Source: Branchiostoma floridae (Eukaryota > Chordata > Leptocardii > Amphioxiformes > Branchiostomatidae). From it: 64,000 nucleotides of DNA. A model generated the notes under the pieces. That model did not search any database. It was not told where the DNA came from and saw only the letters and a program-made list of their open reading frames with translations. A program made the position numbers and the translations under genes. The DNA is taken from positions 17,190,532 through 17,254,531 of the forward strand of contig NC_049990.1 of assembly GCF_000003815.2 (NCBI RefSeq), in the 5' to 3' direction. Positions 2,171-47,539 of this stretch are shown here, in pieces (position 1 is the first letter of the stretch; every line of letters starts with the position of its first letter).

Positions 2171-3558
2171 CTTGATATGCCTATTTGGTGTTGTAGGATA
2201 TGAATAGTTGGACGGGCGGGATTCCAGAGGCCCGGCGATGAAGATTCCTGACAGGATCATTGCTACTGCAACGGATGCCGTGATGACTGCACAAACTAGC
2301 TGTGCGCATGTGCGGGAAGGGCGTATCGGGCCACGGGGTGCAGGTCCCTTGTCTGTGTCTGTGGGAACTGATTATTTAGATTATAGTTAAACATTAATCA
2401 TTATCATCATTAGTCAATCTCTGTGCAGCAAGTAAAGTTCGACTTCCAGAACAGTCTGTCTTTCATCGCTGTGTAGTAAGTATTTTAGTATTACATTGTA
2501 GTAAGTGTATATATTGTCATTGTCATTGTCATATATTTTAACTATCTCTTAACAATCGGAATGTAATAAAAAAAATCAAAGTTACATCAAACCATGTTAT
2601 TTAACAATCAAACCGTTTATTAACCATTTGTTAAATTTCTCAAATATGTCAGGGAGAGACCAGTTCTCATGGAAACAACGATAGGCATAGTTGATTTTCT
2701 GGCGTTGCAATTTCTTTTTAAGAAACTAAGAGGAGAGCCTTTTCTGAATTCAAGCAAAGCAACCCACTAATTAGATTACTTCAGAACTTAAGTATATCTA
2801 TTTGCAAATATTTACATTGGAAATAGTTCTTAATGGAAAAAATAGACATGCACAGAATTATAGCTGATGAAAAGTAAGTCAAATTCTTTGTTTACTTAAA
2901 AAGGTGCACAACATTTGGCTTACCTGGTTGGAGGGTTGGCACTTTCGACTGGTTCATCAAGATCCTGGTACAGATGTCCATCATCATCTACATTGTCATT
3001 TTCATATACATCTTCAGCCAAAACTTTGTCATTTTCATATACATCTTCAGCTACAACTTCATCATTTTCAGATCCATTGTTAGCCAAATCATCATCATTT
3101 TCATATACATTCTCAGCCACATGTTCATCACTTTCATATACATCTGCAGCCACATATGCATCGTCATCATTTTCATATACATCTTCAGCAACAACTTCGT
3201 CATTTTCATATACAACTTCAGCTACATCTTCATCATTTTCATAAACATTTTCAGCCATATCATGATCGTTTTTATATACATCATCAGTAATATAATTCTC
3301 ATCATTTTTATATACATTTTCAGCCACATCATTGTCATCATTTTGATATACATTTTCAACAACAATTCCACCATCATCCCCATATACATATTGTACATTT
3401 TCAGCCATGACGGTATCTGTCCCAGGTGTATGATCAACGTCCCAGAGCTCTGTCCTTATAGACCGTACCTCTACAGTTAAACTAGACGTCACTCCTCTTT
3501 GAATTGTCTTAATGGTTTGGACGTCACTTTGCTGTTGTTTGTAGTTCTTTTGAGATAC
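2171..3558 (-). pseudogene. Unit A: NHL-type membrane protein gene, 3' end outside window, probably damaged
   Basis: Two exons of the tandem family are present. The acidic exon (3558-2924) encodes about 9 Y-x-N repeats of the VYENDE type and ends in donor AG|GTAAGC. The transmembrane exon (2358-2171) encodes a segment ending SRTCAQLVCAVITASVAVAM and onward, with donor AAG|GTAAAC. The NHL exon would lie left of base 1. Two defects are visible. The ATG used by paralogues C and D is ATC here. The acidic exon is one base longer before its donor than in B, C and D, so its phase (2) no longer fits the phase-1 transmembrane exon; joining them shifts frame and loses the membrane segment. The exon is otherwise open throughout. 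A decayed gene or an unseen alternative splice are both possible; decay is favoured. Confidence 0.65.
2970..3400 (-). repeat. Coding minisatellite of unit A
   Basis: Imperfect repeats of roughly 30-36 bp (plus-strand phrase tcattttcatatacatc) encode Val-Tyr-Glu-Asn-Asp motifs. Nine keep Y-x-N; one has VYESD. Confidence 0.85.
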
Positions 3559-4235
3559 CTAAAGGTGTAGAGCAACAGAAAACGTCTAAATCAAAAACAA
3601 ACACTGTATGCCATCTGTTTCTGTTTAGATGTTCAATTATTATGCCTACTTTAAATTTACCCATTCTCCATTATGCTGCATTTGATATTTTTCTGAATTC
3701 ACTGATATTTGACATGCCACTATATTTAAGTTATTGTTCGTTAATATTAATACCGGCAGAGCAATCCCCCAAAGCTACTAGTAGGGCACTCACCCAGAGC
3801 TACTAGCAGGAAATCACCCCAAGTGTTCTTCATACATTCTAATAAAATCAAGACGAGACAACTGATTCAGACTTAAACGGGGCAATAGCCCCGACATGTC
3901 AGTTTGATTTTGATACAATTTTTCACAACTTTTTCTGATTATCAAGTTATAAAAAGTGGAATAAAACGGATTTTCCCTCAACATTTATTAATCTGGTGCT
4001 AACGTTATTTGATTCCTTTTCTTCGTGCCAATGAACTCTGAACACGTTACCTTCTGAAAAACAAAATTTATTAACTATTGTTGTTAATATTTCAAAAAAA
4101 TGGTTTGTTACTGAGTTACTGTAGATTTTCTATTATTCATCTGTATGGAAAAAATAGTACTTGGCAATTAGTTATCAGTATGGAAAAAAGAATAATTGAC
4201 AATGCTCAATTCCTAAAATAACGATTTTTACCTAC
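3559..4235. other. Intron 1 of unit A
   Basis: Lies between the putative 5' noncoding exon donor (4236) and the acidic exon acceptor (tttag|GTATC, 3558). No other gene is seen. Confidence 0.4.
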
Positions 4236-4320
4236 CTTATGCGTATGTGTCACTGATACAACGTTTTGCTGTGTGGAGGTAATTTCTCTGCTGTTGAAAC
4301 TGAAGTGAAGCTAGACTAAT
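4236..4320 (-). other. Putative 5' noncoding exon, unit A
   Basis: The minus strand reads ...CATACGCATAAG|GTAGG, a good donor at 4236. The same sequence and donor occur at 13530 upstream of unit B. The frame leading into the acidic exon has no ATG and a TAG upstream, so the exon is most likely 5' UTR. The left boundary is approximate. Confidence 0.4.
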
Positions 4321-4440
4321 TGTCTAGCCATTAAAAAAAATGTTGCCAGCTTATTGGACAGAAATGATTGGAAATGGTTGGAATCAAATTTTGAAAAAAA
4401 AATTATTATAACTATTGTCTCTTAACGCTCGGACCTATAT
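4312..4440 (-). promoter_or_regulatory. Upstream module A1 (AATTGTCTAG family)
   Basis: Contains CTAGACTAATTGTCTAGCC, then 'gccagcttattggacagaaatgattgg' in split phrases, then 'attgtctct...ctcggacc'. It is one of seven related modules in the window, each in the 5' flank of a tandem NHL unit. It may hold the promoter; this is inference from position and conservation. Confidence 0.45.
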
Positions 4441-5468
4441 AATCACGTTTAAATTTCATTTCATTTGTGAGCCATCCACATCCAAATTACATGAATTAGC
4501 AAAATTACGGGATTTGAAAGCAGAAACCTCTATAAGTCATAAAAATGTTTTTTTTTTTTGTATATATTACATACGACTAGCTTTCCCACTTATTGCAACA
4601 GAACGTTTTATATTGTATTTGGGGCAATCAATTGTCACAGATTTTGGACTGGAATTTCTAATAAATAGCTCTTGTACTCGGGAAGATAAAATAAAAGTTA
4701 GGATCCTCTACCAGCTTTCTTTGTAACTAGAGGCACATTCGAGGGGCAGAATTCAAGAGCATAAAGAAGAATATTTGAATGAATAAATGGATAGAATGTC
4801 TATGTGAATGTGTATAAAATAAAATAAAGAGACTGTACATTGAAACATTCACATGCTGGTATATGTTTATTTTGACCGGCCAGCACAAAACACTTGTCTA
4901 TGTCAAACTTTAAAAAAAAACTTCAACAACGATTTAATAACCTAAATTGCTTGCGTTTTGTAAATAGAGTAATTTCCAAATGTGGCGGCCATCTTGTTTT
5001 TGTTTTGGCTCATGTCTTAAAACGAGGCTCCTACAACTTGAAATACTGCAGGTGACCTAGAACATTTAGCACCAGCATTTATATAATTAATTGACATCCG
5101 TATCTGTGGTATAACAGCTTTTATTGGGTAATGAAAATCTAGGTAGAGAGTTAAAAGACGGTTGGTTAAAAGTCGATGGTTGTTCAATCGACATATGAAA
5201 GCCAAGATCCCTTCTGCAAAGTAAAGCTAAATTCCGTGGTGAAGGCGGAGTACGTGTCGGATGTGTTGTTAATTGCACAATGGATTACCGCACACTCTCT
5301 TAATTGCACGGGATCCCAAAATTCCAAACCGGTGCTGTCTACCTGGATACCTTTGTATTGTTGTAACACACAGATAAATGCACGAAATTCGCTGTAGATG
5401 TGGTGTGCAATTAATCGGCTTCTACTGTATATCAATATAAGCCATGGTTTTAGAAACATAACCCCCCT

Positions 5469-5490
5469 CACACACACACACACACACACA
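5469..5490. repeat. (CA)n microsatellite
   Basis: Eleven CA units, read directly. Confidence 0.9.
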
Positions 5491-5681
5491 AGTTGTATTT
5501 AGATCATTGTGGGATGATTTGTGGCACATTTAGATCTGCTATTTTGACGTTTTTTAGTGCTAATCGTCGTCGATGGTTGGTGGGGGGATTGACCCGCACA
5601 TGCACGCATCTATACCCCACAAAAATCTAGAAGCTCATTTGAGATCAGTGTAAATTGAAATCTTTAAAATCTGTAGAAATG

Positions 5682-5830
5682 TAAACTAATTGTCTAGACC
5701 TTTTCACAGGAAAATAGGTTGGCGTATTGGACAGTATTGATTGAAAATAAATCTAATTGGATTTTTGAAAAACCTTGATTACCACCTTACCGCTCTCAGA
5801 CGAATCGAATCGTATTTAATTAATTGTTTT
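5682..5830 (-). promoter_or_regulatory. Upstream module A2
   Basis: Contains TAATTGTCTAGACCTTTTC, 'ggaaaataggttggc', 'tattgattgaaaataaatc' and 'cgctctcagacgaat', matching 23310-23450 most closely. Function unknown. Confidence 0.45.
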
Positions 5831-7044: not shown

Positions 7045-10000
7045 TTAGTAAGTCTTGTAGATAGTCACCGTGTTATCCCCAACATCAGTAACTACCAACT
7101 GGCCTTCTTTACCAACTGCAATATGATTTATCATCCCCAGCCCAGTAACAACATGGCGAACGAACAGTCCGCGACTTGTAAACATGGACACCCGACCATT
7201 TCCACGCACCCCACCACGATCTGTCACTAAGATATGGCCTGACATGTCAGTACATACGCCGTGGACAAAAATAAACTGTCCATCACCGCTGCCATAGCCG
7301 CCAAAACTGAACAAAAGATTTCCGGTCTGGTTATAAACGCAAACCATGTGATTTCCTGCAGTAAGAATGTTTCCATCCCTTGTTACCACGATGGATTCTG
7401 AAAATGAATCAAGATAAAACTTCCTAACAAACGACCCGTTTGGCTGGTATATGTTGAGCTCATTTCCAAACCAGTCACCTTTTGTGAGGAAAATGTGATT
7501 ACTTTGTGGATCCCTTGCAATCCTTTTGACCTGCCTACTGCGTTGCACCTCAAACTTGCTCAAAGCTATACCATCCTTGGTGTATTGTACAACATAAGAG
7601 CCAGCAACTCTAACATTCCCCACTGCCCACAGGTTGTCATTTTCGTCAATATAAATGTTTCCAGGAAACATGGCATTTGTTCTTTCACCTTTCCCGGGTA
7701 CAGTTGTCAAGAAATGACGAATGTAAACACCCTTCATGTTGAATACTTGGACTCGATGATTGTCAAGATCAGCCACAAATATCTCGTTTCTAGAAGAAAC
7801 AACAACTCCACTTAGACGAGCGAACTTCCCCAGTGTCGATCCCCGCCCGCCAAACGTGATGACGTGGCGTTTTCCACTAGCTTCCATTGTCCCTATAATG
7901 ATGTAACACAAATATAATAAGTACGGAACAGAATAGAAGTCGTATAACACTCGTTCTTATTCAAATATAAAAAGGGCACTTTTTTGTTCGTAAAAATGAT
8001 CGGCTTTTTTTCAGTGAAACCAACCTGTTTACTAGGAAAATCCCTACTGTAACCATAGCCAAAAAATGGCAACTTATTAATATTTTCTTAACTATCGGTT
8101 ATGTATTACAGGGCAGGTAACAAACATTACCGGTGACGTTTGTTACACACACAGTAACCTTTACCCTCTTTTCTTTGAGAGGATTAAAATTACAGGCTAC
8201 ATCATTTAGATATAAGTGGACATCCCTAGGGACATTCAAAAAGGAGGCAGCATTTTTACACGAGGTCATATAGAAGCTTAAGAAGCATCGAAGAACGGTA
8301 ACGTTTGTTACAGTCATTTCTGTACAACATTTTGTTAAGCAAGGTGAGATATAAGTGGCAATCAATGACTCTTTCTTGTTTCTTTAGAAAACCAGATAAA
8401 CTGTAAAGCGTCACAAAAACGGCGATTTCTAATCGTTTACGCGGATGGTATAACCATGTCAAACATGTACTTGTTCTGGTAACGTTTGTTACCGAATCTG
8501 GTGACAAGTATAAACAACCTCACACAGCCCCCAAGATCAGTGACAGGAGCGATCTGACGTGATCGGTCAGAGGGCCTCACCAGGGTAGCTGGTTTCACCT
8601 GCCGAACAATCATTCTGGGACCTGAATTGTTGAATGTTTGGCTGCTATTTGAATTCTTCCTTTCTTCTCAGGCGACAGCCATTTTTCGGGTGGTGAAATC
8701 GTTTTCGTGCAGTGCAACCCGTGTTATAATAATCTTCCAAGCCATCAATCAATATAAATGTAGTGGTATATTTTTAAAACATGAAAGGGGCTGTGGAAAA
8801 ATGAAGAGACCAGTGATGTTGTCTATAATTTGCTGCATATCAAGTCGTAAAGGCAGGCGACATCATTTTTTTTACATTGGCATAACAAGACATAAATCCT
8901 TTGTAAGGTGGATTATTAACTCTTAATACAGAAGAAGCAAATTCTTTTAGCCAAATATTATTTTGAAAAAAAGTGTCTCAAATGTGCTTCGATTGTACGA
9001 AGGTATGGTATTCTTAAACACTGGTTTTGATCGCAGTATGATGTTGCTAAAATCTAGTTTGAAATCTTGTTGAACTCTAGTTTTAAAATCGACGAATGAG
9101 GATATCTAACTAGTTTTTGATGGTTGTTCTGCTGTTCTCATAATTCTGCTGGACTCTAGTTTTGGATTATGTATCATGCTGCAAAACTCTAGGTTTTAAT
9201 TGAGGTATGATTTTATTCAATTCTATGATTTTATTCAATTCTATTCTATTTATGGATGTATGATGTTGTTGTTGAACTCTAATTAGAAATGGAGCTAGTT
9301 TTGACTTACTCCGTATGTAAATGGAGGTACGCATGTTGTCTAATGCTGTAGTAGTTTTAACAGTTCTCATCTTGGTTTTTGGGTTTCCTTCGGTGGACAA
9401 CAAAACCTGAGAAATAAATAAACAGTTTACATAAGTATCTATACTTATAGAATATTGCAGCAACGACATACTTGCCGTTGGTCTAGTGCCAATCAAACGA
9501 CATCAAGCTACAGGGATAAATCTTAACCATATTCAGACCGGGGGTGGGGGGTGGTTGCTTTTGAGGTCCACGCCAAATTTGATGTCGTATAACGCCAGAA
9601 CGACTTATGATAGAGCCACCAAATTTAATGAGTTTTCCTAAAATATTGTTAGCAACAATATTACGAAGTTTGACAAATTTTCCAGTTTTTCTTGTCCCAT
9701 TTGTTGACAGGCAGTTTTGCCAAAAATCGCTAATTTTGGTTCTAACAATGTATTTTTTTACGTTTATTTGCTATATTACTGCTTTTTTCTTACATAAATA
9801 AAATCTTAGAATATCTTTCATAATAAGATATACATAAATTCTGCTAATTTGATGACGTCATTAGCCCAAATCCTAGATGGCGGACCGTATGGCCAGATCA
9901 AGAATAAGTAGCTTATTATCTCTCAGAACTTGTAACTACCTGGTATTTTTTCATCAAAAACCATCTTAATGAATGTATTTAGTCTATTTCCATTGCCTTT

Positions 10001-13000
10001 TGTGCTTATTTGTTTGAAAAAAAGTATTTTTGAAAATTCAAGGTTTTGGATATAATATGGGGAGTCCAACTGTTATCTTAGATGTGCATAACGTCATTTT
10101 ATGACGTCATTTTGACGTCATTGATGTTGCTATTGGCAACACAAGTCGTAACAAACATTATCTTTCTGTTATCAGCACATGCTGTTACAATTTTGTAGCA
10201 AAAAGTTTTCTGAAAAAAAAACTTTTTTCATGGGTCCGGCCAGTACATTGAAATTGATGACGTCATAATTACGTCATAATCCGTCATCGTAACGTCAAAC
10301 TTCTTACAGTTGTTAGACATTATGTGTATATCATGTCCTAAAAATGTCCTAGTGGCTATACAACACGTCGTTTAAGAGTTATAGGACTTAGAAGTGGAGG
10401 GCCTCAAAAGCCCCCCCCCCCCCTTCAAGGGATGAGCAAAAAAGCCCGGTCTGAAAAGGGTTACGTTTACTGTCCCAAAGACCAAGAGAAAGCACAAGAA
10501 GTTGGGGTTACTCTTGTATATTCTATGCCTTATCATTTATCAATGTGTTAATGGTATGTTTTTAATTGATTAGAAATCTGGTATCACGCTATAGCAATTC
10601 CAAGTGTAATACATATGGTTTTCTTTCTCTGCTTCTGATGGCTTGTTATCTGTAATAATATCTTTTATTAATTTGTCTCATTTCTTATGTAGGCTCAAAG
10701 TCACAAAATCAACCAGAGGCGATTCGACAATAATTATACAAGAAGGTCACTTTCTGTGCTGAATGTTTGTAAACTTGATAATTAATCATTGTTCTCTTAC
10801 AAGGGAATATATATTCCAAACCGAATATGCCCATCAAGATCAACTGGTATGTCAATACTTGATTATCATATGTATTCCTGGCACTAGATCGCCGTAATTA
10901 CGAAGTATGTGCACTCCACTCTATGTATCAATAATACTCACACTATTGGTATATCCGTATGTTGTGGATGGATACTTAACCGTAGTGTGATCTGCTTGAA
11001 GCGTTGTCGTCTGAAACAGAGATTACATTTTCTTTATTATTATCTTAAATGACAAGCCGCACAGTAAAACATACGCATCACATTTTTCGATATTAAATCA
11101 GCAGTCCTGACAAATGAAATGACACATCCGTTTGCTGGACACGTTTCTCGGTAGAAGGCGATTGGAACATACAGTACAGCTATGTATCAATGATACTCAC
11201 TGTATTGGTATATTCGTATGTTGTGGATGGATATTTAACCGTGGTGTGATCTGCTTGAAGCGTTGTCGTCTGAAAAAGAGGTTACATTTTCTTAATTTAG
11301 GATAACAGAGAAAATTGGCAAAGAAGATGTAGCCAAACAGAAAATTGGCAACTGTCTGCAAATGTTAGGGCTGTTTTGGGGTTTGTCTTTAATTAGCAAA
11401 TGCAATGTATATATGTAATACATAAAGCTTGGGGGGCTGCCAGACATTTACCTTGACAGTTGGTCGTGTAGGATACGGATAGTTCTGCCGATGAGTTTGC
11501 TGGGGCGAAACGATAAAGACTCCTGACAGGATCATTGCTACTGCAACGGATGCCGTGATGACTGCACAAACGAGCTGTGCGCATGAGCGGGTAGGACGCA
11601 TCGGGCAACGAGGTGCAGGTCTATTGTCTGTAACAAATGAAAAAGTTTAGACAGTCTAACATTACTTTCTCATATTATAATAGAATTTCACAGTAATAAA
11701 CTGTAACCACTACGTTAATAACAATAAATGTTCTATGAAAGCACTAAATATAAACTGTAAGCATTTCGTTGAGGACCATGCATGTACTATGAAAGCACTC
11801 AATACACTTGAATATTGTACTGAAGTGTAAACGCTCACTGCACAGTCTACATCTGGCACCCGCATTGTACACATGAACGGATGCTAGACTTGGCTTAGAA
11901 AATCAACCAAATAGCCAATAAGTTATGCATATTTGGCTGCGCATGGAAACAAAATGCCATATTCAATTAAATGAGATTGCATAAAGGCTGTGAACCACAA
12001 TGTCACACCGATAAGGGTCCTGTTCTCATGGAAACGACTTAGCTATTTATGTATGAAATTGTTGCAAACTGAATATTAGAAACAGCTAAACGTTTCATGA
12101 TTTTAACGTACGCCATTTAGACTAGTAGTTATGTGCATATAAAGGGTTACGAGTCTAAGAAGCTTTTCTTGGAGATCAACACATTAATTTTAAGGATATT
12201 GTCAGAAAATTCAGAGATAGGTGTGAAATATAGGACTATAAAATAAAAAAAGTGACTTTAAGTTCTTGTTTACTTCCTTTCGTTGTATTTGGCTCACCTG
12301 AAGGAGGTTTGGCCTTTCCTGTTGGTCCATCAAGATCCTGGTATTCATGTTCATCATTATCTATACTGTCATTTTCATATAAATCTACAGGCACATCATC
12401 ATTTTCATATGCGTTTTCAGCCACATCATCAACATTTTCATATGCGTTTTCAGCCACATCATCATTTTCATATACATTTTCAGGCACATCATCATCATTT
12501 TCAAATACATCTACAGCCACATCATTATCATTTTCAAATACAGCTACAGCCACACCATCATCATTTTCATGTGCATCTTCAACCACATCATCATTTCCAT
12601 ATACATCTTTAGCCACATCGTTATCATTTTCATATACAGCTACAGCCACATCATCATTTTCATATGCATCTTTAGCCACATCATCATTTTTATATACAGT
12701 TTTAGGCACACCATCATTATTTTCGCTTACATCATCATCTTTTATATCTGTATCTTTTGCCACATCATCATTTTTAGATACATCTTTAGGCACATCATCA
12801 TTATTATTTTTACATACATCTTCAGCCACGTTATCATCATTTTCATATAAAAGTACATCTTTAACCACATGATCATTACTTTTATATACATGTACATCTT
12901 CAGCCACAATATTATCATCATTTCCATATACACAATGTACATCTTCAGCCACGAAGGTATCTGTTCCAGGTGTAGGATCAACGGTGGCGTCCAAAAGCTG

Positions 13001-13087
13001 CGTCTGTATGGACTGTGGCTCTACAGCAGCACTAGAAGTTACTCCTCCTTGCGTTGTCTGAATGGTTGGGATGTCTCTTCGCTGCAT
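7045..13087 (-). CDS. Unit B: type II membrane protein with Y-x-N repeat tail and NHL propeller
   Basis: Six exons splice in frame to 682 codons plus stop: 13087-12298, 11627-11452, 11269-11201, 11010-10942, 9406-9310 and 7892-7045. The start is the ATG at 13087, because the ATG position used by paralogues reads ATC here. Residues 1-263 are an Asp/Asn-rich region with 10 Y-x-N motifs and degenerate AHEND and VFEND repeats. Residues about 282-303 (LVCAVITASVAVAMILSGVF) form a membrane segment preceded by Arg residues, suggesting a cytoplasmic N terminus. Residues 323-400 are a Thr-rich stalk, including two nearly identical 23-residue exons. Residues 401-682 form about six NHL blades (first blade IFVADLDNHRVQVF). 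N-glycosylation sequons (NQT, NGS) in the propeller support an extracellular C terminus. There is no signal peptide. Ligand and function are unknown; the SH2-docking role is inference. Confidence 0.8.
7960..8935. repeat. Dispersed repeat with GTAAC...GTTAC palindromes
   Basis: Lies in the last intron of unit B and matches 35895-36440 in unit D. Shared phrases are 'aaaaaatggcaacttatta', 'cattacagggcaggtaac' and 'tttctgtacaacattttg'. Near-palindromes GTAACGTTTGTTAC recur at about 8280 and 8480. The class is unknown; a mobile element is likely because the two copies sit in different introns. Confidence 0.5.
9527..10460. mobile_element. piggyBac-like non-autonomous element
   Basis: The left end reads TTAA|CCATATTCAGACCGGG and the right end CCGGTCTGAAAAGGG|TTAC. 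That gives an inverted terminus around TTCAGACCGGG and a TTAA target duplication with one altered base. A run of C lies near the right end (10411). Related left ends occur at 37673 (TTAA|CCTCATGCAGAC), 43713 and 50194 (TTAA|CCTTTGTCCAGAC). There is no transposase frame. It lies in the last intron of unit B. Confidence 0.6.
10930..11285 (-). repeat. Tandem duplication carrying two 69-bp stalk exons
   Basis: Exons 11269-11201 and 11010-10942 are 259 bp apart and encode almost the same 23 residues (TTTLQADHTTVKYPSTTY, then EYTNT or GYTNS). Flanking intron is also duplicated ('tatgtatcaatgatactca' against 'tatgtatcaataatactca'). Both exons have CAG acceptors and GTGAGT donors in phase 0, so one or both can be spliced without frame loss. 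Confidence 0.85.
12345..12965 (-). repeat. Coding minisatellite of unit B
   Basis: About twenty imperfect repeats encode D-V-Y-E-N-D-D-type motifs. Ten keep Y-x-N; some have His, Phe, Cys or Ser in place of Tyr. Confidence 0.85.
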
Positions 13088-13745: not shown

Positions 13746-13764
13746 GAAACGTGGAGGTAAGCAG

Positions 13765-14545: not shown

Positions 14546-14579
14546 ATTACTCCCCAGAATTACCCATGATTTTGAATCA

Positions 14580-18650: not shown

Positions 18651-18654
18651 TACT

Positions 18655-21013
18655 ATTATCTCAGGGCGGTGAGGTGTTCTATACCCTTTGGGTGCCCCCA
18701 TCCTGACATAACTCTTATCTCAAGGCAGTGAGGTGTTCTGTACACTGTGGGTACCCTCGCCCTGGGATAACTCTTATCTCAGGGCGGTGAGGTGTTCTGT
18801 ACACTGTGGGACCGTGTGGTGTTCTGTACACTGTGGGTACCCTCGCCCTGGGATAACTCTTATCTCAGGGCAGTGTGGTGTTCTGTACACTGTGGGTACC
18901 CTCGCCCTGGGATAACTCTTATCTCAGGGCGGTGTGGTGTTCTGTACACTGTGGGTACCCTCGCCCTGGGATAACTCTTATCTCAGGGCGGTGTGGTGTT
19001 CTGTACACTGTGGGTACCCTCGCCCTGGGATAACTCTTATCTCAGGGCGGTGTGGTGTTCTGTACACTGTGGGTACCCTCGCCCTGGGATAACTCTTATC
19101 TCAGGGCGGTGTGGTGTTCTGTACACTGTGGGTACCCTCGCCCTGGGATAACTCTTATCTCAGGGCGGTGTGGTGTTCTGTACACTGTGGGTACCCTCGC
19201 CCTGGGATAACTCTTATCTCAGGGCGGTGTGGTGTTCTGTACACTGTGGGTACCCTCGCCCTGGGATAACTCTTATCTCAGGGCGGTGTGGTGTTCTGTA
19301 CACTGTGGGTACCCTCGCCCTGGGATAACTCTTATCTCAGGGCGGTGTGGTGTTCTGTACACTGTGGGTACCCTCGCCCTGGGATAACTCTTATCTCAGG
19401 GCGGTGTGGTGTTCTGTACACTGTGGGTACCCTCGCCCTGGGATAACTCTTATCTCAGGGCGGTGAGGTGTTCTATACCCTTTGGGTGCCCCCATCCTGA
19501 CATAACTCTTATCTCAGGGCAGTGAGGTGTTCTGTACACTGTGGGTACCCTCGCCCTGGGATAACTCTTATCTCAGGGCGGTGTGGTGTTCTGTACACTG
19601 TGGGTACCCTCGCCCTGGGATAACTCTTATCTCAGGGCGGTGAGGTGTTCTGTACACTGTGGGTACCCTCGCCCTGGGATAACTCTTATCTCAGGGCGGT
19701 GTGGTGTTCTGTACACTGTGGGTACCCTCGCCCTGGGATAACTCTTATCTCAGGGCGGTGTGGTGTTCTGTACACTGTGGGTACCCTCGCCCTGGGATAA
19801 CTCTTATCTCAGGGCGGTGAGGTGTTCTATACCCTGTGGGTGCCCCCATCCTGACATAACTCTTATCTCAGGGCAGTGAGGTGTTCTGTACACTGTGGGT
19901 ACCCTCGCCCTGGGATAACTCTTATCTCAGGGCGGTGTGGTGTTCTGTACACTTTGGGTACCCTCGCCCTGGGATAACTCTTATCTCAGGGCGGTGAGGT
20001 GTTCTGTACACTGTGGGTACCCTCGCCCTGGGATAACTCTTATCTCAGGGCAGTGTGGTGTTCTGTACACTGTGGGTACCCTCGCCCTGGGATAACTCTT
20101 ATCTCAGGGCGGTGTGGTGTTCTGTACACTGTGGGTACCCTCGCCCTGGGATAACTCTTATCTCAGGGCGGTGTGGTGTTCTGTACACTGTGGGTACCCT
20201 CGCCCTGGGATAACTCTTATCTCAGGGCGGTGTGGTGTTCTGTACACTGTGGGTACCCTCGCCCTGGGATAACTCTCATCTCAGGGCGGTGTGGTGTTCT
20301 GTACACTGTGGGTACCCTCGCCCTGGGATAACTCTTATCTCAGGGCGGTGTGGTGTTCTGTACACTGTGGGTACCCTCGCCCTGGGATAACTCTTATCTC
20401 AGGGCGGTGTGGTGTTCTGTACACTGTGGGTACCCTCGCCCTGGGATAACTCTTATCTCAGGGCGGTGTGGTGTTCTGTACACTGTGGGTACCCTCGCCC
20501 TGGGATAACTCTTATCTCAGCGGTGTGGTGTCTGTACCTGTGGGTACCTCGCCCTGGGATAACTCTTATCTCAGGCGGTGTGGTGTCTGTCACTGTGGGT
20601 ACCCTCGCCCTGGGATAACTCTTATCTCAGGGCGGTGTGGTGTCTGTACACTGTGGGTACCCTCGCCCTGGGATAACTCTTATCTCAGGGCGGTGTGGTG
20701 TTCTGTACACTGTGGGTACCCTCGCCCTGGGATAACTCTTATCTCAGGGCGGTGTGGTGTTCTGTACACTGTGGGTACCCTCGCCCTGGGATAACTCTTA
20801 TCTCAGGGCGGTGTGGTGTTCTGTACACTGTGGGTACCCTCGCCCTGGGATAACTCTTATCTCAGGGCGGTGTGGTGTTCTGTACACTGTGGGTACCCTC
20901 GCCCTGGGATAACTCTTATCTCAGGGCGGTGGTGTGTTGTACTGCGAGTACCCTCGCCCTGACATAACTCTTATCTCAGGGCGGTGGGGTGTTATGTACA
21001 CTGTGGGTACCAC
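18655..21013. repeat. 59-bp satellite array of hairpin units (about 40 copies)
   Basis: Each unit holds GCCCTGGGATAA-CTC-TTATCTCAGGGC (written here as arm, loop, arm): a 12-bp inverted repeat with one mismatch and a 3-base loop. Most copies are nearly identical. A diverged variant (ctataccctttgggtgccc) recurs at about 18670, 19465 and 19820, indicating amplification of multi-unit blocks. Units at 20520-20640 carry small deletions. It lies inside the CACTA-like element. Confidence 0.95.
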
Positions 21014-21015
21014 CG

Positions 21016-21585
21016 CACCCCTATATAAGGCCTTATACCAGGATCCATCCCTGACAATGTAATACACGCACCCCTATAGAAGGCCTTATACCAGGGTCCA
21101 TCCCTGACAATGTAATACATGCACCCCTATATAAGGCCTTATACTAGGGTCCATCCCTGACAATGTAATACATGCACCCCTATATAAGGCCTTATACCAG
21201 GGTCCATCCCTGGCAATGTAATACATGCACCCTTATATAAGGCCTTATACCATGGTCCATCCCTGACAATGTAATACATGCACCCCTATATAAGGCCTTA
21301 TACCAGGGTCCATCCCTGACAATGTAATACATGCACCCCTATATAAGGCCTTATACCAGGGTCCATCCCTGACAATGTAATACATGCACCCCTATATAAG
21401 GCCTTATACCAGGGTCCATCCCTGACAATGTAATACATGCACCCCTATATTAGGCCTTATACCGGGGTCCATCCCTAACAATGTAACACATGTACCCCTA
21501 TATAAGGCCATAAAAGAGGGCCCATCCCTGACAATGCAATAAATGTACCCCTGTTTAAGGCCTTATATCAGGGTGCATTACCAGC
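21016..21585. repeat. 53-bp satellite array (about 11 copies)
   Basis: Units start cacccctatataagg and contain the perfect 14-bp palindrome TATAAGGCCTTATA. They diverge towards the right end of the array. It directly follows the 59-bp array inside the CACTA-like element. Confidence 0.95.
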
Positions 21586-23450: not shown

Positions 23451-25205
23451 TTTTTTCCAATGCACTGTTTTCTGACTGATCACATCAAAACCAGTGAAAT
23501 CAAAACTCGTAAAATTATTTTCATGCAAAAGCAAGCAAGAGTGAAAAAATGATGTGCTATTTCTTCTTACAAATGTTTCTAAAAGTGTACTTTTGCCGAA
23601 ACAAAATACATATATTGCATGCTAGCAATACTTGTGATCGTATGTAAACTTTCACCTTCCTTCGAATAAACCTCTGCCACATCCATTGGCTAGCCACCTA
23701 CTTCTGCTTCTGTGTGCTAAGCCAATAAGTATTTCATCGGGACACAAACACGACTTTATCATCTGAATATCTCAGGACAAGCCTTTTATTTCTGCAACAT
23801 AATGAATAATCCTTTCGTCATTAACCATGTCTCTACCTTTAAAGAACATACATTCGTTGCTATTACTTCATTGGTATCTTTTTGTACAGAATTCTATCAT
23901 TTTGAAAACACATCTATATAATATATGATAAAAGTCGCCATACATGTCATTAGGCCAAGAAATGCTGGTGCCATATCCATAGTTTTGAACATTACCGTAA
24001 ATGAATGTAATAGTGTAAAAATGTAAGATCTCTATAATTTTCTCTCGAAACGCATGGTACATGCAACAACACATTCTAGGGCACATATGACCTATTCGAA
24101 TGAAAATAAACGTCGGACAAGTCGGCACCATGCCTAGGGCGATTTCTAGACAGTTTGCTGTCAAGAAGACTCTTAATTATAACCTTATCACTAATTCTAA
24201 ATTAACCCCAAGTCCCTAGCCTGTTTGTCGTTCTAGGCATGTTGCTGAGTTGACCTGATATATCTTGGTAGATTTCATGTAGATTTTGAAAATGATGTTT
24301 TGTTTATATTTGCTTCTACCTGTGTCCAGCTGTCCGCTGCTACTGTCCGCATTAGTAAAATGTTGTAGATAGTCACCGTGTTATCCCTTACTTCAGTCAC
24401 TACCAACTGTCCTTTACTAACTGCAATATGATTTATCCTCCTCAGCCCAGTAGTAACAACATGACGAACGAAAAGTCCGCGACTTGTAAACATGGACACC
24501 CGACCAATTCCAAGTACCTCACTACCACGATCTGCCACGAAAATACGGCCTAAAATGTCAGTACAAATGCTTTGGACAAAAGTAAACTTTTCAGTACCAC
24601 TAACATAGCCGCCAAAACTAAACAGAAGATGTCCGGGCGTGACTAGCACGTTGCACCTCGTACATGTTTAAAGCTAGACCACTGTTGTTGTATTGCACAA
24701 CATAGGAGCCAAAAAAAATTCATACTCCCCACCACCCACAGGTCGTCTTTGTCGTCAATAGAAATGCTTTCAAGAAACATTTGACCTCTGGCTTTTCCGG
24801 GTACAGTGGTCAAGAAATGACGCATGTAAACGCCTTTCGTGTTGAATACTTGGACTCGGCTATTGTCGTGATCAGCTACAAATACTTCGTTCCTAGCAGA
24901 AACAGCAAGTCCAGTTAGGCGAGAGAACTTGCCCAGTGTCGATCCTCGCCCACCAAACGCGATGACGTGACGTTTTCCATCATCTTCTGTTGTCCCTATA
25001 AAGATGCAACATGCATAAAATAAGTACAAAACATGACATATATATTATAAAATCCTTTGCAAGGGGAATTTTTAAGTACACAATACAGAAAAAACGCATT
25101 CTTTCTGGTAAAAAAATGGTTCGCAATACGTGTTAGTAATGTCCTTCGATTGTTCGTAGGTATTTTGTTAAGTCGGTGAAGATTAGACATCAAGGTAATA
25201 AGATA

Positions 25206-25705: not shown

Positions 25706-26424
25706 TAAATGTTAGACTTTAATTATTACGACTTATGAAATGTTCAGTGAATGGAGTGAACATTAAAATAGTTAGAATTATTCACGTCATCATGACACGA
25801 TGAACCGTCATTATGACGTTATTTATGTGCCTTTATTGGCTGAAACTCGTCACATATTACAAATTACAGGCTGGGGTCTGGTAACTTGGAATTTCAAAAA
25901 TACTTTGTTAGCAAATAAATCGTAAAAAAACCAAATAGACTAAAACATTCATTTAAACGGCGTTGGATTAAAAAAGCAAGAGGTAGTTATGAATTTCAAG
26001 GCATAATAACCTAGTCATTCTTGACCTTGTAATGTGGCCCGCCATCTTATGTTTTGGTTAATGGCGTCGTAATTGTAGCTTATTCTTTGCCTACAATATC
26101 ATTTTATTAGTGTTGGCTCTTAGTGGAGGCATGATGCTGCTCAACTCTAGGTTTAATTTTAGCCTCACCCCGCTAGTTTTACTTACCCCGTATGTTAATT
26201 GAGGTATGTACTAGTATGTTATCCAAAGCTGTAGTAGCTTGGATAGTTCTCATCTTGGTTTTTGAGTTTCCTTCGGTGGACAATACCTGAGGCATAAAAA
26301 ACAGTGAAAAAGATATTTCTGAATGATCATTTCTTATGTAGACTCAACATCATATTATATCAACCAATGTGTCAAAACCTAGGACCAATGCAGAAAGGAT
26401 CGCTTCCTTTACCGTATGGCTTGC

Positions 26425-26617: not shown

Positions 26618-27799
26618 GTTAGTCACTGTCCTCGAGCCTCTCACTAGAGTAAAAATATTTGAAGCCCACTGTGCAAAGGTCTAACAACTAGTATTCTATC
26701 TAATACTCTATTTTCTTAATATGCTCTTTGTTTGTCATTACAAAATCATGTGTACTCCATTCCATGTACAGGATTGGTATTTTCCAAGGAAATGTCGTGC
26801 GTTTTGAAAAAAAAAAAAACATTTACCCTGACAGTCGGTCCTGTAGGATACGAATAGTTTGACTGGTGCGTTTCCTGGGGCGAAACGATGAAGACTCCTA
26901 TCAGGATTATCGCTATTCCAGTGGATGCCGTAAGGACTGCACAAACCGGTTGTGCGCATGAGCGGGATGGACGTATCGGACCACGAGACTTAGGTACTCC
27001 GTCTGTAGCAACATTTAAAAAGTCTGATATTATACTGTTTGTATGAAGTAAACTGTAACCATAATTGAACTTTAAAGGCTCACTCAGACTGGTCAATTTG
27101 TATCTTGCAATCACACTGTACACAGGCATGGTTATAGGCTTGGCTTAGAAAGGTTAGCGAATGTCACTCTTCAATACACGAACGACTCAAAGATTTGGCT
27201 GCGCATAAAAAAGTAAAACAGCAAGGGTTAAGGTTCAGAATGCTGGACAGGAAAACCAAAAGGAATGACAAATTTTCAAACTCACAGCTGATTTAGCCGT
27301 AAGTAAGATGGTTGTACTTAATAAATCTTAAACCATTCGCCAAGTTAGCAAAATAAAGCTTTACCCATCAAATAATAACACATGCAAACTGCAATGTCTA
27401 ACCGAAGAAAATTATAATTTGTAAAAGTATGGCTGCCTGGATCTTGTTTTCATGGAAAACATGATACGCCGTTTTAAGTCATTTTGTATAAAGTTGATGC
27501 AAATTGCATTTTGAAAACAGATAGATGGCTCCAATATATACAATTGAGACGTTTCATGTCGTAAACTGGGCTCAGTGCTTAGAAGTCATGCTATTTGAGG
27601 ACACAATCACATAATTTCAATAACTAAAGATTTTAAGGATCTTGGTTGTGAAAACGTTGCATCTAGTAAAACGCTAAGGATTCCATATGGTCAGAAATTT
27701 CCTAATTGCATAGAATGATACTTGTGACTAATTCTTATTTACTTCCAAACGCTGCATCAGGCTTACCTGATGGGAGGTTGCCACTTCCAGCTACTTCAT

Positions 27800-28600
27800 C
27801 AAGATCCTAGTACACTTGTTCATCATCATCTACACTGTCATTTCCATATGAATCTTCATCCACATCATCATTTTCATACACATCCCTAGGCATATCATCA
27901 TTTTACATACATCTACAGCCACATTATCGTCATTTCCATATACGTATTTAGCCACATCATCTTCATTTTCATATGCATTTTCAGTCTCACCAAGATCATT
28001 TTCATATATATCTTTATCCAAATCATGATCATTTTCATAGGCATACCTAGCCACATCCTCTTCATTTTCATATACATCTTTAGCCACATCAACATCATTT
28101 TCATGTGCATTTTTAGCCACATCATCATCATTTTCATATGTATTTTGAGCCACACCATCATCATTTCCATATACATCTTCAGCCACATCATTATCATTGC
28201 CATATACATATTTAGTAACATAAACACTGTTTTCATATAAATCTTTAGCCACGTCATCATTTCCATATACATCTGCAGCCACATCATCATTTACATCTTC
28301 AGCCACATCAGCGTCATTTTTACACACACCTTTATTAACATAAACATCATTTCCATATACATCTGCAGCCACATCATCATTTACACCTTCAGCCATATCA
28401 TCGTCATTTTTACACACATCTTCATTGACATAAACATCATTTTCATATACATAGTTAGCCTTATCTTCGTCATTATTATATGCAAGGGCATCTTCAGCTA
28501 CATTGGCATCATTTTCATATACATCCTCAGGTACATCAACATCATTTCCATATGCATCTTCTGCGACATCATCATTTTCATATACACCTTCAGCTACAAG
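27800..28600 (-). repeat. Coding minisatellite of unit C
   Basis: About 22 imperfect repeats with VYGND, VYEND, AYEND and TYEND cores. A larger block (plus-strand phrase 'tttccatatacatctgcagcc') is itself duplicated at about 28260 and 28350. Confidence 0.85.
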
Positions 28601-28684
28601 GTCAGACGCTACTTCTCCATGAGTTGTCCGGATGGAAGAGACGTTTCTTTGCTGCATCGCTTTTGTCTGCACTTCTTTAGACAT

Positions 28685-29320: not shown

Positions 29321-29471
29321 GTTAATGACCCGCCTGTTCCTCGGTGTACATGGTGTCATAACGCCTGGTCCTTGCTATAACCCACCTCATAAAACCACTT
29401 CTTTTCTTCGGTGGTTATAGCAAAGGACCAGGCGTTATGACACCACATACACCTCGGGGCGGGTCATTAAC
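29321..29471. mobile_element. 151-bp near-perfect palindrome (hairpin MITE)
   Basis: The ends are GTTAATGACCCGCC and GGCGGGTCATTAAC. The inner arms carry GGTGTCATAACGCCTGGTCC and its inverted form. The central loop is about 20 bases. It would fold into one long hairpin. It is probably a tiny foldback transposon, though no target duplication beyond TTAA-like ends is clear. Confidence 0.7.
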
Positions 29472-31009: not shown

Positions 31010-31172
31010 CGATTAATTGTCTAGACCTTTCGCAAGAAAATAGGCCAATCTTTAGGGTGGATATGATTAGAATTGGTTGCTTTCAATCATTTCGAGAAAG
31101 CTTTTGAAGTCGAAATTAGCAATATATTTCTCTGCTCTCAGACCAATATACATGAGATTAATTTCTTGTCAT
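31010..31172 (-). promoter_or_regulatory. Upstream module C2
   Basis: Contains GATTAATTGTCTAGACCTTT, 'caagaaaataggcc' and 'ctctgctctcagaccaat'. About 1.0 kb from C1. Confidence 0.4.
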
Positions 31173-32429
31173 TTCGTTTTATTTCATTGGTCTTTGAATG
31201 AGCCGACCAATTCGAAAACGCTATGAAGACAAATATCTATTAAAGCATTTGGATGAATGCATTCATTATATCTATTATCTTTTAGCTTATCGGAGAGCGT
31301 CAAACGTCCAGATGTCTCTTAAAGCATTTTCATAAGAAAATTCGATATTTACAAAATATAGGATGTTTCTTAGATATTACACCCATATACTAACAGAATT
31401 GGACATTTTTTGATCCACTCAACCGAACCTGCAGTAAACAGATCAGATACACAGTGACAATCATAGTACTAACATAATAATAATCGGGCAATTGATGTAA
31501 AATTGTTTAAACGTAATGGAAGCTTTTGATCGCAGTATAATATTTTTTAATGTCTGACAGAGCAGACGTCTTAGCCCTTGGCCTGCAGGGACCCAGGTTT
31601 CGGTGTATTTCTTAGCAGGATTTTAAACTCCAAAAGTGGCTAATATTTTTCAATAAGTTGTTTATCAATCAGTACATTATTAGCTAATTTTTAGTATTCT
31701 AGGTATGGTAAATTACGCGCATTGTGTTTTGTTAAATAATTTGAGACTCGCAAACATTTGTAACCTGAGATTTTATTTGAAAATCCATTACATTTATTAG
31801 TGATGGGCCAATGGCACGCTACAAATCTTCCTGGACTTTACGACAAACAAAATCATAAAACGTCAATATTTACATCGTGCGGAGAAACAAGCATGCCAAG
31901 AAGGCCAACATTTGCTCAGATATTAAATAACACAAGAAATATATTACCCCACCATGTTCAATATTACTAGACTGTAGAAACACTACTTAATATGTGACAA
32001 ATGTTGTTGTTGTCTTTAATTAAAAGGGGCAGAGGGGGGTTGACGGGTCAAAGCTAGGAGTTTTGTACTTGCCGGAGTGAAGTGCACAAAATGACATAGT
32101 AATACTTTAACTGCATGCAAGTCTTTTATTACTGCATGTCAATACACTGTAACGTACGTTTGTTTTTGACACATGTAAATCTACTATAAGTATTTTGTAA
32201 CCCTCATGTTGGATTTATTCTAATACTATCATTAGTATCCCGATATAGCTCACATAATTATGCAGCTTAACAGTGTTGTCTTTTCTTACATTAAATCTAA
32301 TTTATTATCAGATTAAATGCATGTTTTAATAACAATACAAATTGAGACTTAGAATAGGTTAGTTAATCTACCAGTAACTCTTGATTACACCATGCATCTT
32401 GTTGGGCAAAGCTTTCTATTGAAATCAAT

Positions 32430-35400
32430 TTAGTAAGTGCTGTAGATAGTTACAGTGTTATCTCTTTTATCAGTCACTACCAGCTGTCCTTCTTGTCCTA
32501 CAGCAATACGATGTACCATCCTATGTCCAGTAGCTACTTTGCGAACAAATTTTCCTCGACTTGTAAACATGGAAACCCAGCCCTTCTCATGCCAGTTTCC
32601 TTGATCGGCCACCAAGATTTGACCAGAAATGTCAGAACAGACACACTGAGGATATACCAGCCCACCATTACCCCTGCCTTCGCCCCCAAAACTAAACAGA
32701 AGCTGTCCTGTCTGGTTATACGCATGAACAATGTTATGTTCAAGCGTAAAAATCACCCCATCCCTGTTAACGGCAATCGATTCTGCACATAAAATCTCTA
32801 ACTGAAGCTTCCTTACAATCCTGCCGTTGGAATGATATATGGAAACCTCACAGCTATCTGTGTCACGTTTTGTGATAAGAATCTGGTCACTTTGTACATT
32901 CACAGCAATCCCACTAGCGACACTGCTGTTTGGAACCCCAAATTTAGCCATAGCTTCACCACCCCTATTGTACTGTACAGCATAGGAGCCATCAAATATC
33001 AACTTGCCCACTACCCACAAATTATCATTGCCGTCAATTGAAATATCCTCTGGAATCATGCTACTGTCAGGTTTCCCGGGAACAGTTGTCAAGAAATGAC
33101 GAATGTAAACACCATTCATGTTAAATACTTGGACTCGCCTGTTGTCATGATCAGCTACGAACATCTCGTTTCGAGAGGAAACAACAACTCCACTTAGACG
33201 AGCGAACTTCCCCAGTGTCGATCCCCGCCCACCAAACGCGATGACGTGACGTTTTCCATCATCTTTTTTCGTCCCTAAAACGACAAAAACAACAAAGACA
33301 CCATTTACAAAATGCTTTAAAAGTTTAGGTCGTAATACCAAATTGAATCCTTAAGAATGGAGTTCCCCTTCAAAATACATGGTCAACTGAAAATCAGGTT
33401 GACAATTCTCTTTAAGTCAGGAAATTTCTTTCTCATACATGTCCTTTAAATTTTTTTCCATAAATAACGAAAGTCATTGTTTATTTCAATGCATTATTAA
33501 ATGTTTACCTTTGTCTTTCTGGCTGATAGAGGTGAGTACGTTATTTCCCAGAGTTGTGACATAGTCAGCAGTTGTCTTGATTGTGTTGGTGTATGCTGTC
33601 GATGGGAAAACCTGTCAAAGCAATACGTTAATTATTAATTTTATTGCCAGGGCATTTGAAGCTGAGGCACACACCATCTAATACGTAGATCGTAGCCATC
33701 AAATGATATAAGCGATATTTTTACATTAACATCTAGATAGTTTTATGTGCAATCATTTCTAGTTACTGTTCCGTTAACATTCATTTTTGAACGCAACATA
33801 TACTATTTTTATAATTGCAATTAATACTTTACTTTGAAGTTTTTGACAAGAGCATTGCTGTCGTTCCTTGCGTTATTACTTAAGGGCAAAACATAAAAGT
33901 TATTGAGGATTCATCTTTTTAAATTAAGGCTAAATTCGCGATTGTTGTCATAAGCAGAAACGTATCCTTTTTTTATTTTTTGATCGGGTTTTCAATATTA
34001 ACAAAAACAAAGAAAAGTTTGGGAACCATTTACCAACAAAATGAAATGTTTCCTTTTTAATTGAAGAAAACTGCATTGAATTGACAAACATGTAATCCCG
34101 ACGTTTCAAAAAGCCATTATACAATGAAGTTGTATTTTTTTGGGATTGGCTACTTCATTCGTTTTGTTGTACCTGTCAATTTCCACTCACAACCTGATTC
34201 ATTCGTAATTTTTTATCTACATCAAGAACCTCCTCGGTCCAAATTGCTCGTAAATGTAATTAAATTCGCGATGGTTTAATGTTCGCGGTTTTCGCGGTGG
34301 CCGTTTCACCGGGAACTTAAAACAACCGCGGGCATTTTTCTATGGCAGTAAGAGACTACGGAGCACCGCGAAAAGTCCTTTTCACGCTACCGAGAAATTA
34401 AATCCCCGCGAACTTAAATACATTTACAGTAATATCTCGAACCATTTACAATTGTTTACAATTGTTGACGGCCACATCTAGGGTACCACCGTGAATAAGG
34501 TAAATAAATGTGAAAAATCATGTAAACATTTACCTCGATATTCCTAATCTGCGTTGTAGGATACGGATGGCTGCTTAACGGAACGGATTTCAGGAGTCTG
34601 GCGTAGAAGATTCCAGACAGGATCATTGCTACTGCAGCGGATGCCGTGATGACTGCACAAACCAGCTGTGTACATGAGCAGGAGAGACACGACAGGACTC
34701 GAGGAGCAGGTCCCCAAACTGTAGCAACTGATAGCATTCATGAAAATCATCACACGATAGCAGATTTTTGTCTGATACATCTTGTAATCCCTATCACTGT
34801 AAACACAACAGCAAAATTTATAATTGTTAGCCTTCTTTAGAAAAAAATTACTCTATCTTTGGAATGTATGCTACTAAAAGTTTGTTTTCCTTGTATGTCG
34901 GTCGAAAGTTAATTATGACTCACCTGATGGAGGATTGCTGCTCTCAGGTGGTTCTTTTAAACCCAGGTCATCATCAACATCGCCATTTTCATATATATCT
35001 AAATCCACACCATCATCATTTTCATATACATCTTCAGCCACACCATCATCATTTTCATATACATCTTTAGCCTCATCATCATTATCGTATACAACTTTAG
35101 GCACATCATCATCATTTTCATATGCATTTTCAGTCCCACCATCGTCATTTCCATATACATCTTCAGCCACATCATTATCATTACTATATATATGTTCAGC
35201 CACATTATCATTTTTATATACATCTTCATCCACATCATCATTTTCATAGGCATATTCAGCCAAACCATTACCATGTTTCAATACATCTTCAGTCACATCG
35301 TCATTTTCATATACATTTTCAGCTACATAACCATTGTTATCTTCATCTTCAGCAACATCATCATCATTTTCATATATATCTTCAGCCACATCATCATTTT

Positions 35401-35767
35401 CAGTTATATATACATCATTTTCACATACATCTTTAGCCTCATCGTCGTTGCTATACAATAGTACGTCTTCAGCATCGTTTTCATGCGTATCTTCTGATAC
35501 ATAAACATCATTTCCATTACATACATATTCAGCTTTCTCATCATCATCATTTTCATATACATCTCTACCCACATCATTAGTATCTCCATATACATCTTCA
35601 GACACGGCAGTATCTGTTACAGCTGTGAGATCAATGGTAACGTCCCCCGACAGAGTCGGTACGAACCGTGACTCTACACTAAGGCCAGACGCTACTGCTC
35701 CATGAGTTGTCGGAGTGGTCGGGACGTTTCTTTGCTGCTTCTTTATCGTCTGTAGTTCCTTAGACAT
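32430..35767 (-). CDS. Unit D: type II membrane protein with Y-x-N repeat tail and NHL propeller
   Basis: The best-preserved unit. Four exons (35767-34924, 34718-34534, 33611-33509, 33274-32430) join in frame to 658 codons plus stop. The start ATGTCTAAGGAACTAC is shared with C. Residues 1-281 contain 13 Y-x-N motifs (VYEND, IYSND, AYEND) in acidic repeats. Residues about 300-322 (QLVCAVITASAAVAMILSGI) form a membrane helix; Arg lies on its N-terminal side. A 34-residue Ser/Thr-rich stalk follows (VFPSTAYTNTIKTTADYVTT), then about six NHL blades (IRHFLTTVPG, LFSFGGEGRGNGG, ILVADQGNW, QLVVTDKRDNTVTIY). Sequons NSS and NQT in the propeller fit an extracellular location. Exon phases 1-0-1 match unit B, which has two extra stalk exons. 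Ligand unknown. Confidence 0.85.
34250..34434. mobile_element. Short inverted-repeat element with TTCGCGG motifs
   Basis: The left end TAAATGTAATTAAATTCGCG is mirrored by CCGCGAACTTAAATACATTTA at the right (two parts). The interior is rich in CGCGG. It lies in the intron after the transmembrane exon of unit D. A MITE is likely; class not determined. Confidence 0.6.
34975..35610 (-). repeat. Coding minisatellite of unit D
   Basis: About 20 repeats of roughly 30-36 bp. Thirteen encode Y-x-N; the others are decayed at Tyr or Asn (THEND, VCEND, GYVAEN). Confidence 0.85.
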
Positions 35768-39260: not shown

Positions 39261-47522
<8,262 letters not shown>

Positions 47523-47539
47523 GTCTCTGTTTTTGTGAT

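Follow-up and report, generated by a model that had tools for sequence, protein, structure and literature searches.

Organisation of the locus

The stretch of DNA analysed here (the window) comprises 64,000 nucleotides of the genome of the lancelet Branchiostoma floridae (C12:17190532-17254531 of the assembly searched, which has 513.4 Mb in 431 contigs). It contains a tandem family of genes, units A to D, in which an exon encoding an acidic tail of tyrosine-bearing repeats precedes a transmembrane exon, a Thr-rich stalk and a single exon encoding an NHL propeller. The lancelet genome carries about two dozen such apparent cell-surface proteins, whose architecture is well supported and for which a signalling role is proposed below.

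Units D and B were spliced in silico into four and six exons, which yields complete frames with 658 and 682 codons plus stop, exactly the codon numbers claimed in the initial annotation. All their internal junctions are GT-AG; phase 1 follows the tail exon, phase 0 follows the transmembrane exon, and entry into the NHL exon is in phase 1.

Unit D
34924..35767, minus strand: acidic Tyr-repeat tail exon, from the ATG; 281 codons, 13 YxN, ends in phase 1
34534..34718, minus strand: transmembrane exon with Cys-rich N-flank; phase 1 in, phase 0 out
33509..33611, minus strand: Thr/Ser-rich stalk exon; ends in phase 1
32430..33274, minus strand: single NHL exon with stop; six-bladed propeller model

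Unit B
12298..13087, minus strand: acidic Tyr-repeat tail exon, from the ATG; 263 codons, 10 YxN, ends in phase 1
11452..11627, minus strand: transmembrane exon (spliced model)
11201..11269, minus strand: Thr-rich stalk exon 1 (spliced model)
10942..11010, minus strand: stalk exon 2, a near copy of stalk exon 1 (spliced model)
9310..9406, minus strand: stalk exon 3; ends in phase 1
7045..7892, minus strand: single NHL exon with stop (spliced model and Pfam)

Four like units had been described originally, of which D and B are whole but not the other two. Unit C is, as far as its sequence can tell, a pseudogene, with frameshifts in the tail and NHL exons, a stop in the tail and an internal loss in the NHL exon. 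In unit A the join from tail to transmembrane exon is out of frame, because the donor of the tail exon gives phase 2, and the stalk and NHL exons lie in flanking DNA just left of the window (L010:9229-9164 and L010:8515-7682). Therefore, two of the four units are intact and two decayed. Further left, a fifth unit, Z, has tail, transmembrane, stalk and NHL exons. A divergent NHL exon, unit E, lies near the other end of the window, and its candidate transmembrane frame (L011:5773-5441) and candidate tail frame (L011:6928-6161) are both to the right of it. IQPYAVRYQ and IEPYAVC occur in one upstream frame of E, and a transmembrane segment of Kyte-Doolittle (KD) hydropathy 2.57 in another, these being separate, unspliced frames; two relatives of the candidate tail (E <= 1e-5) lie at other places on C12.

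Unit A
2924..3558, minus strand: acidic tail exon with 9 YxN; lacks an ATG at the start place of D and C, donor in phase 2
2171..2358, minus strand: transmembrane exon; stalk and NHL exons left of the window

Unit C
27767..28684, minus strand: broken tail exon; frameshift and in-frame TAG near the 3' end, ends read from the sequence
26827..27002, minus strand: transmembrane exon
26187..26286, minus strand: stalk exon homologous to stalk exon 3 of B, ends read from the sequence
24350..24995, minus strand: broken NHL exon; frameshift and internal loss, 3' end approximate

Unit E
62624..63600, minus strand: divergent NHL exon, 34% identical to that of D; phase 1 entry as read from the sequence

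The NHL propeller

The Pfam NHL family was matched by units B, D and E with 53.7, 58.3 and 52.5 bits, respectively, the cut-off being 20. The structure prediction proposed in the initial annotation was run on the D propeller (AlphaFold2, three-row alignment), and gave a model with 24 strands, read as a six-bladed NHL propeller, with a predicted local distance difference test score of 87.2 and a predicted template modelling score of 0.88. The solved structures nearest to this model are those of TRIM2, TRIM3, TRIM71, Thin and Brat, with TRIM2 and TRIM3 as the best matches. Among 23 NHL exons of the family, the loops BC and DA vary more than AB and CD (1.42 vs 0.85 bits, p 1.3e-4); which face of a propeller counts as its top is a matter of convention.

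The tyrosine-repeat tail

The tails are built from a unit of 10-11 residues, V-A-E-D-V-Y-E-N-D-D, which includes VYENDD. The acidic, Tyr-rich character described originally is borne out, the fraction of D+E being 0.27-0.32 in the window tails, but the repeated YxN motif (x, any residue), which when phosphorylated is the motif of Grb2-family SH2 domains, had been missed. The motif is found 13 times in D and 10 times in B, compared with 1.9 and 1.3 in shuffled sequences, and between 5 and 18 times in 23 of 24 tail frames, compared with 0.5-3.3. These 24 tails, 19 fetched by their place in the genome together with those of Z, D, B, A and C, were read as open frames, and some of their ends may not be exon ends. 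In D and B all 23 YxN motifs have V, I, L or A at position -1 and 20 of them an acidic residue at most five positions upstream. Neither tail contains an immunoreceptor tyrosine-based activation motif (ITAM), an immunoreceptor tyrosine-based inhibition motif (ITIM) or an NPxY motif, and YxxPhi is absent from D and present twice in B. In the 24 open frames, where ITAM were not counted, ITIM gave one match each in L060 and in the frame of B including upstream sequence.

Counted over all frames there are 368 repeat units; 356 of them are in the main frame, and the other 12 belong to L046, L061 and C. Over the 356 units, residues are retained at V.74, A.63, E.69, D.56, V.74, Y.77, E.73, N.87 and D.75, so that N is the best kept residue and Y the next. 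The tail exons of the window gave no match in Pfam. As a separate observation, many tails end, just before the donor, in an EYxDLNEPxESxNPPSG-like segment, a YxxL-like site by the membrane and apart from the repeats; D lacks its tyrosine.

Distribution in the genome

A search of the whole genome with the D propeller gave at least 138 matches at E <= 1e-20 (138 scored among 725 candidates). Among the matches listed, identity to the NHL exon of D is 58% or more for 24 NHL exons, with those of B, D, A and Z included, and 49% or less for the next. Searched separately, the D tail gave 48 matching pieces and the transmembrane exon of B 27 matches, in the same places as the NHL matches. In fact, a transmembrane exon and then a tail lie upstream on the same strand at 23 of the 24 core NHL loci, so that the exon architecture for which a search had been suggested recurs through the lancelet genome. 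The exception is a locus on C218, which begins 3.6 kb from the contig end. One of the 27 transmembrane matches precedes an NHL exon of 49% identity on C158, without a tail match. The leftover matches are the exons of unit C, tail and transmembrane places at C12:17.566 Mb and C8:6.50 Mb without a listed core NHL exon, and three lone tail places. A phase-1 donor ends 19 of the 24 tails; four have no donor by the pattern used, and A has its donor in phase 2.

The NHL tree was built from 40 exons, namely 23 core exons (one having been dropped for a stop codon), six of 46-49% identity, 10 of the 20 fetched from C17, and E. On this tree a branch with support 100/98 separates the core, as one clade, from the rest; the six exons of 46-49% identity make up its sister group (99/99), and those of C17 make a third group (100/98). 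No relative of the D propeller was found in viral contigs, and Rfam gave nothing at gathering thresholds.

Two sister loci, L086 (C12:4.82 Mb) and L087 (C8:0.66 Mb), have a transmembrane exon 43-45% identical to that of B and related NHL exons. Their tails consist of repeated EDVYSTPSGIYEEAQ-like units, with YE[ED] 3 and 6 times, respectively, and YxxP 3 times each, and they are less acidic (D+E 0.13-0.14) than the window tails. The repeats can also be described as VYSTPSGIYEEAQ-like, a form reminiscent of multi-YxxP substrates. Since the core, sister and E tails differ, at least three tyrosine-bearing tails seemingly occur on one membrane-propeller plan.

Two other groups of NHL genes were observed. 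A stretch at C17:18.30-18.97 Mb (L006, L064-L083) holds more than 60 of the matches listed, as counted by eye, and in its NHL exons (n=20) the BC and DA loops are 5 times more variable than AB and CD. Its member L006 has, by eye, a coiled-coil-like N-terminus and no transmembrane segment, and this large NHL repertoire is worth a separate study. At C15:20698738-20701821 (L007), one frame joins an N-terminus which resembles RING and B-box by eye, a hydrophobic segment of KD 2.23 and an NHL domain, possibly a membrane TRIM-NHL protein.

Conservation and selection

At the settings used for this comparison, the DNA that can be aligned between D and B, one transposon-like element aside, lies in the tail, transmembrane and NHL exons and extends no more than 32 bp past them. 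The NHL exon aligns over its full length and 9 bp beyond. In the tail exon the alignment reaches 9 bp (D) or 32 bp (B) past the ATG and ends 44-56 bp short at the other end, and the transmembrane exon aligns in part, the tail and transmembrane matches ending 6-73 bp short of some exon ends. The stalk exons gave no alignment at these settings. In the closer pairs, C-B and B-A, some non-exon DNA is also common.

The remaining D-B matches are two pieces, 36424-35913 against 8870-7945, the former inside an element that resembles a miniature inverted-repeat transposable element (35918-36444, 527 bp) 5' of the D tail exon, and the latter a relative in the last intron of B. The idea that this common DNA is a regulatory element was dropped, since the D copy is framed by 25-nt inverted repeats, 88% complementary, which make a transposon more likely; no inverted ends were found in the B stretch searched.

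The ratio of non-synonymous to synonymous change (omega) is 0.41 for the NHL exons of D and B (bootstrap 0.29-0.56), and its median is likewise 0.41 over 253 pairs of 23 exons, which indicates that the NHL exons are under purifying selection. For the transmembrane exon of the D-B pair omega is about 0.6-0.8, with wide intervals. In the window tails purifying selection was considered and left unsupported, as 66 units of four tails show 34 synonymous changes compared with 37.6 expected. The 24-locus tails show a modest synonymous excess (299 vs 228 expected), carried by V(-1), E(+1), D(+3) and weakly E(-3), and not by Y.

Other features of the window

Long minisatellites lie at 18652-21578 and 52471-52700, with units of 59 bp (about 37 copies), 53 bp (about 11 copies) and 42 bp. 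Upstream of B, a near and a far stretch match DNA upstream of A, and the minisatellites of 59 and 53 bp sit between the two. A gamma-glutamyltranspeptidase exon (46316-47621, minus strand, Pfam E 7e-26) has an upstream frame with a hydrophobic stretch by eye. Finally, a near-palindrome at 29343-29453 has 52-nt arms, 77% complementary, and a 7-nt loop.

Proposed mechanism

If transcribed, as we infer, the core units could encode lineage-expanded, single-pass type II receptors whose phosphorylated tail docks several Grb2-type adaptors, an interpretation to which we give an even chance. The six-bladed propeller would stand outside the cell on its Thr/Ser-rich stalk and bind a ligand, probably through the face of the BC and DA loops, the most variable between paralogues. 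A single helix would span the membrane, its cytoplasmic edge bearing Cys and, in most members read, basic residues, and the N-terminal tail, long, acidic and repetitive, would offer some 5-18 YxN in VYENDD-like units in nearly all members. On engagement of the receptor, kinases of the Src/Syk type would phosphorylate the tail tyrosines, several Grb2-family adaptors would be recruited together to the pYxN sites, and responses through Ras or actin could follow, as likened to LAT with its three pYxN sites; any immune role would be a further supposition.

This type II, Grb2-docking receptor is favoured because pYxN is the motif of Grb2-family SH2 domains and because Grb2 and Lck of lancelets have been tied to membrane receptors. 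Grb2-family SH2 domains bind pYxN and three sites of LAT conform to it (PMC6669380, PMC10968029), amphioxus Grb2 was co-precipitated with a membrane leucine-rich repeat (LRR) protein (PMC10199209), and in Jurkat cells amphioxus Lck supports the phosphorylation of a receptor from amphioxus (PMC8211107).

A wider and more tentative proposal, rather less probable than the former, is a modular receptor superfamily, in which the propeller-membrane module is joined via phase-matched exons to different Tyr-repeat tails, YENDD (pYxN, Grb2-like) in the core, YSTxS/YEE in the sister loci and IQPYAV/NPLY-like in E. Each tail would commit its receptor to a different SH2 or PTB adaptor and the variable face would diversify by birth and death, yielding an expanded recognition repertoire whose outputs, set by the tail, would be many-fold multivalent and outside the ITAM/ITIM logic.

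Evidence against the proposal and alternatives

Several observations weigh against the receptor proposed, and they are given here together with the alternatives. To begin with, at least six of the 24 loci carry lesions in the tail, donor or NHL exon: out-of-frame units in L046, L061 and C, the phase-2 donor of A, a stop in the NHL exon of L021 and, in L027, a match that starts at propeller residue 60. Secondly, in the C17 control (20 NHL exons) the one-sided loop variation is stronger than in the family (there 1.14 for BC and DA vs 0.23 for AB and CD). Loop variability was therefore dropped as an indicator of a ligand face outside the cell; it gives no argument for an extracellular site, because it is shown by the C17 group, in which L006, the one whole frame tested, has no hydrophobic segment. 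A variable binding face in both the core family and the C17 group is plausible, and is silent on the side of the membrane.

The most serious alternative, though on balance an unlikely one, keeps the type II protein and has the tail act by charge and disorder, as a spacer or in binding cations or basic partners; its tyrosines would be a by-product of a repeat spread by slippage and would dock no SH2 domain. Within a gene the repeat units have an omega near or above 1 (1.08 in D, 0.52-2.31, and 2.85 in B, 1.34-7.48), so that the tails evolve fast. The tyrosine codon shows no synonymous excess (11 changes vs 15.1 expected, p 0.31), A(-4) and D(-2) show a synonymous deficit, and the null spectrum of this column test was derived from the same data as tested. 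One core tail, that of L051 on C9, has no YxN at all, nor do the sister tails of L086 and L087 have any. Moreover, triplet-rich GATGAT arrays could easily expand in frame, if slippage is at work. Against a tail acting by charge only, Y and N are the best kept residues across the 24 loci, above the acidic positions -3 and -2, and the two sister loci retain repeated tyrosines in a less acidic tail of different sequence. Thus, the YxN motif is kept in nearly every member, and constraint on the tyrosine itself is unsupported by the codon tests; redundancy among many copies, or neutrality, would each give this absence of signal.

A second alternative, which we hold to be improbable, is a protein of cell adhesion or recognition whose tail merely anchors it, the propeller binding one of the same or another kind on an adjacent cell, as teneurins do, without Grb2-type signalling. 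The type II plan and the propeller would suit it equally, but the 658-682 residues leave no room for EGF, YD or RHS parts: the D and B models, with NHL and tail exons scanned against Pfam, consist of tail, transmembrane segment, stalk and NHL only, and lack the EGF repeats and the YD/RHS shell of teneurins. Furthermore, the family TEN_NHL is not matched by B or D up to E 0.01 (E reaches 16.5 bits, with a cut-off of 27.1), and a tail serving for anchorage would presumably not need repeated tyrosines.

The opposite topology, in which the acidic repeats would face outwards and the propeller would lie in the cytosol, where TRIM-type NHL domains act, is likewise improbable. In its favour, the closest folds are those of TRIM2/3/71, Thin and Brat, several of whose PDB titles are RNA complexes or E3 ligases, and the charges around the helix in D (K+R 1 before, 2 after) and in L031 break the positive-inside rule and do not favour an internal N-terminus. 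In addition, N-glycosylation sequons, put forward in the initial annotation in support of an extracellular propeller, were rejected as evidence, being fewer than in shuffled sequences (D 2 vs 2.9, B 3 vs 4.2; 1.35 vs 2.39 per family NHL). A sequon at D position 186 is present in 15 of 23 family members and in none of the 20 C17 controls, a sharing which may reflect common descent.

On the other side, D and B have one strong hydrophobic segment each, near residues 280-320, preceded by some 280-300 residues, and no early one (over the first 60 windows of 19 residues the highest means are 0.66 and 0.21), which upholds the absence of a signal peptide noted originally; translocation of so long an N-terminal tail without a signal peptide would be unusual. 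An excess of positive charge before the helix over that after it, in line with another of the original arguments, is found in eight of the ten transmembrane exons read out of the 27 matched, including B, A, C and Z, but fails in L031 and in D, an intact gene of the window. Taken together, these ten exons have 19 K+R before the helix and 8 after, and 0 D+E before and 8 after. A stalk rich in Thr, Ser and Pro (0.35-0.42) lies on the propeller side of the helix. A type II topology, with a cytoplasmic tail and an extracellular propeller, is the one predicted. The N flank and the first five helix residues contain 1-4 Cys in the ten exons, which could be lipid-modified.

Finally, that the exons come from different genes or are not joined by splicing, the architecture being an artefact of prediction, is hardly credible, for although lancelet gene predictions have reportedly been questioned in one study, the phases join in two full models, the three exons are collinear at nearly all core loci, most tails have a phase-1 donor and D-B conservation ends near the splice sites.

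NHL propellers are best known as intracellular modules binding RNA and substrates. If the receptor interpretation is true, a non-vertebrate chordate uses them as a cell-surface repertoire, coupled to tails whose tandem pYxN sites outnumber the three of LAT, which would add a receptor class to the lancelet repertoire and offer a natural test of how tail valency sets signalling and clustering. The family is testable, with two intact genes in the window and defined loci elsewhere.

Comparison with known systems

The fold and the docking logic are already known; for their combination and for the repeat tail no description was found. In the open-access literature, which mostly leaves subscription papers outside its scope, no description of the tail-TM-NHL (TM, transmembrane) family was recognised among the matches listed, and nothing was found joining the NHL repeat, or NHL with TRIM, to amphioxus; what joins NHL repeats, type II transmembrane and extracellular is, by listing, the teneurin genes. 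Four papers on lancelets or TRIM/NHL proteins leave the family undescribed in the text available from them (PMC4284660, PMC2575513, PMC3503706, PMC3160408), and its genes may well be sitting unnamed in lancelet gene sets. The original claim of an architecture unlike that of known NHL proteins agrees with the lack of a Pfam match in the tail and of a TEN_NHL match in B and D.

The TRIM-NHL proteins TRIM2, TRIM3, TRIM71, Thin/Abba and Brat differ from the lancelet family, which has a strong membrane helix and one NHL exon after the transmembrane and stalk exons; in the window tails Pfam matched nothing, and hence neither RING nor B-box was found there. The mycobacterial PknD shares 14% identity in the aligned propeller, and carries a kinase domain in place of a docking tail. 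Teneurins are type II, single-pass proteins with an extracellular six-bladed NHL propeller (PMC6297184), a topology that in the lancelet family is predicted.

The likeness to LAT-like pYxN scaffolds consists of several YxN sites in a membrane-tethered tail. LAT also shares with the lancelet tails an acidic context and juxtamembrane Cys, and is not known to have a large ectodomain. LAT has three sites (PMC6669380), whereas most lancelet tails have 5-18, in tandem and N-terminal to the helix, with a propeller on the far side of it. Lastly, the amphioxus membrane proteins FrLRR and BbLcLRR have been linked to Grb2 or Lck through co-precipitation (PMC10199209, PMC8211107), and they differ from the NHL family in their LRR ectodomains and in their other tails or anchors.

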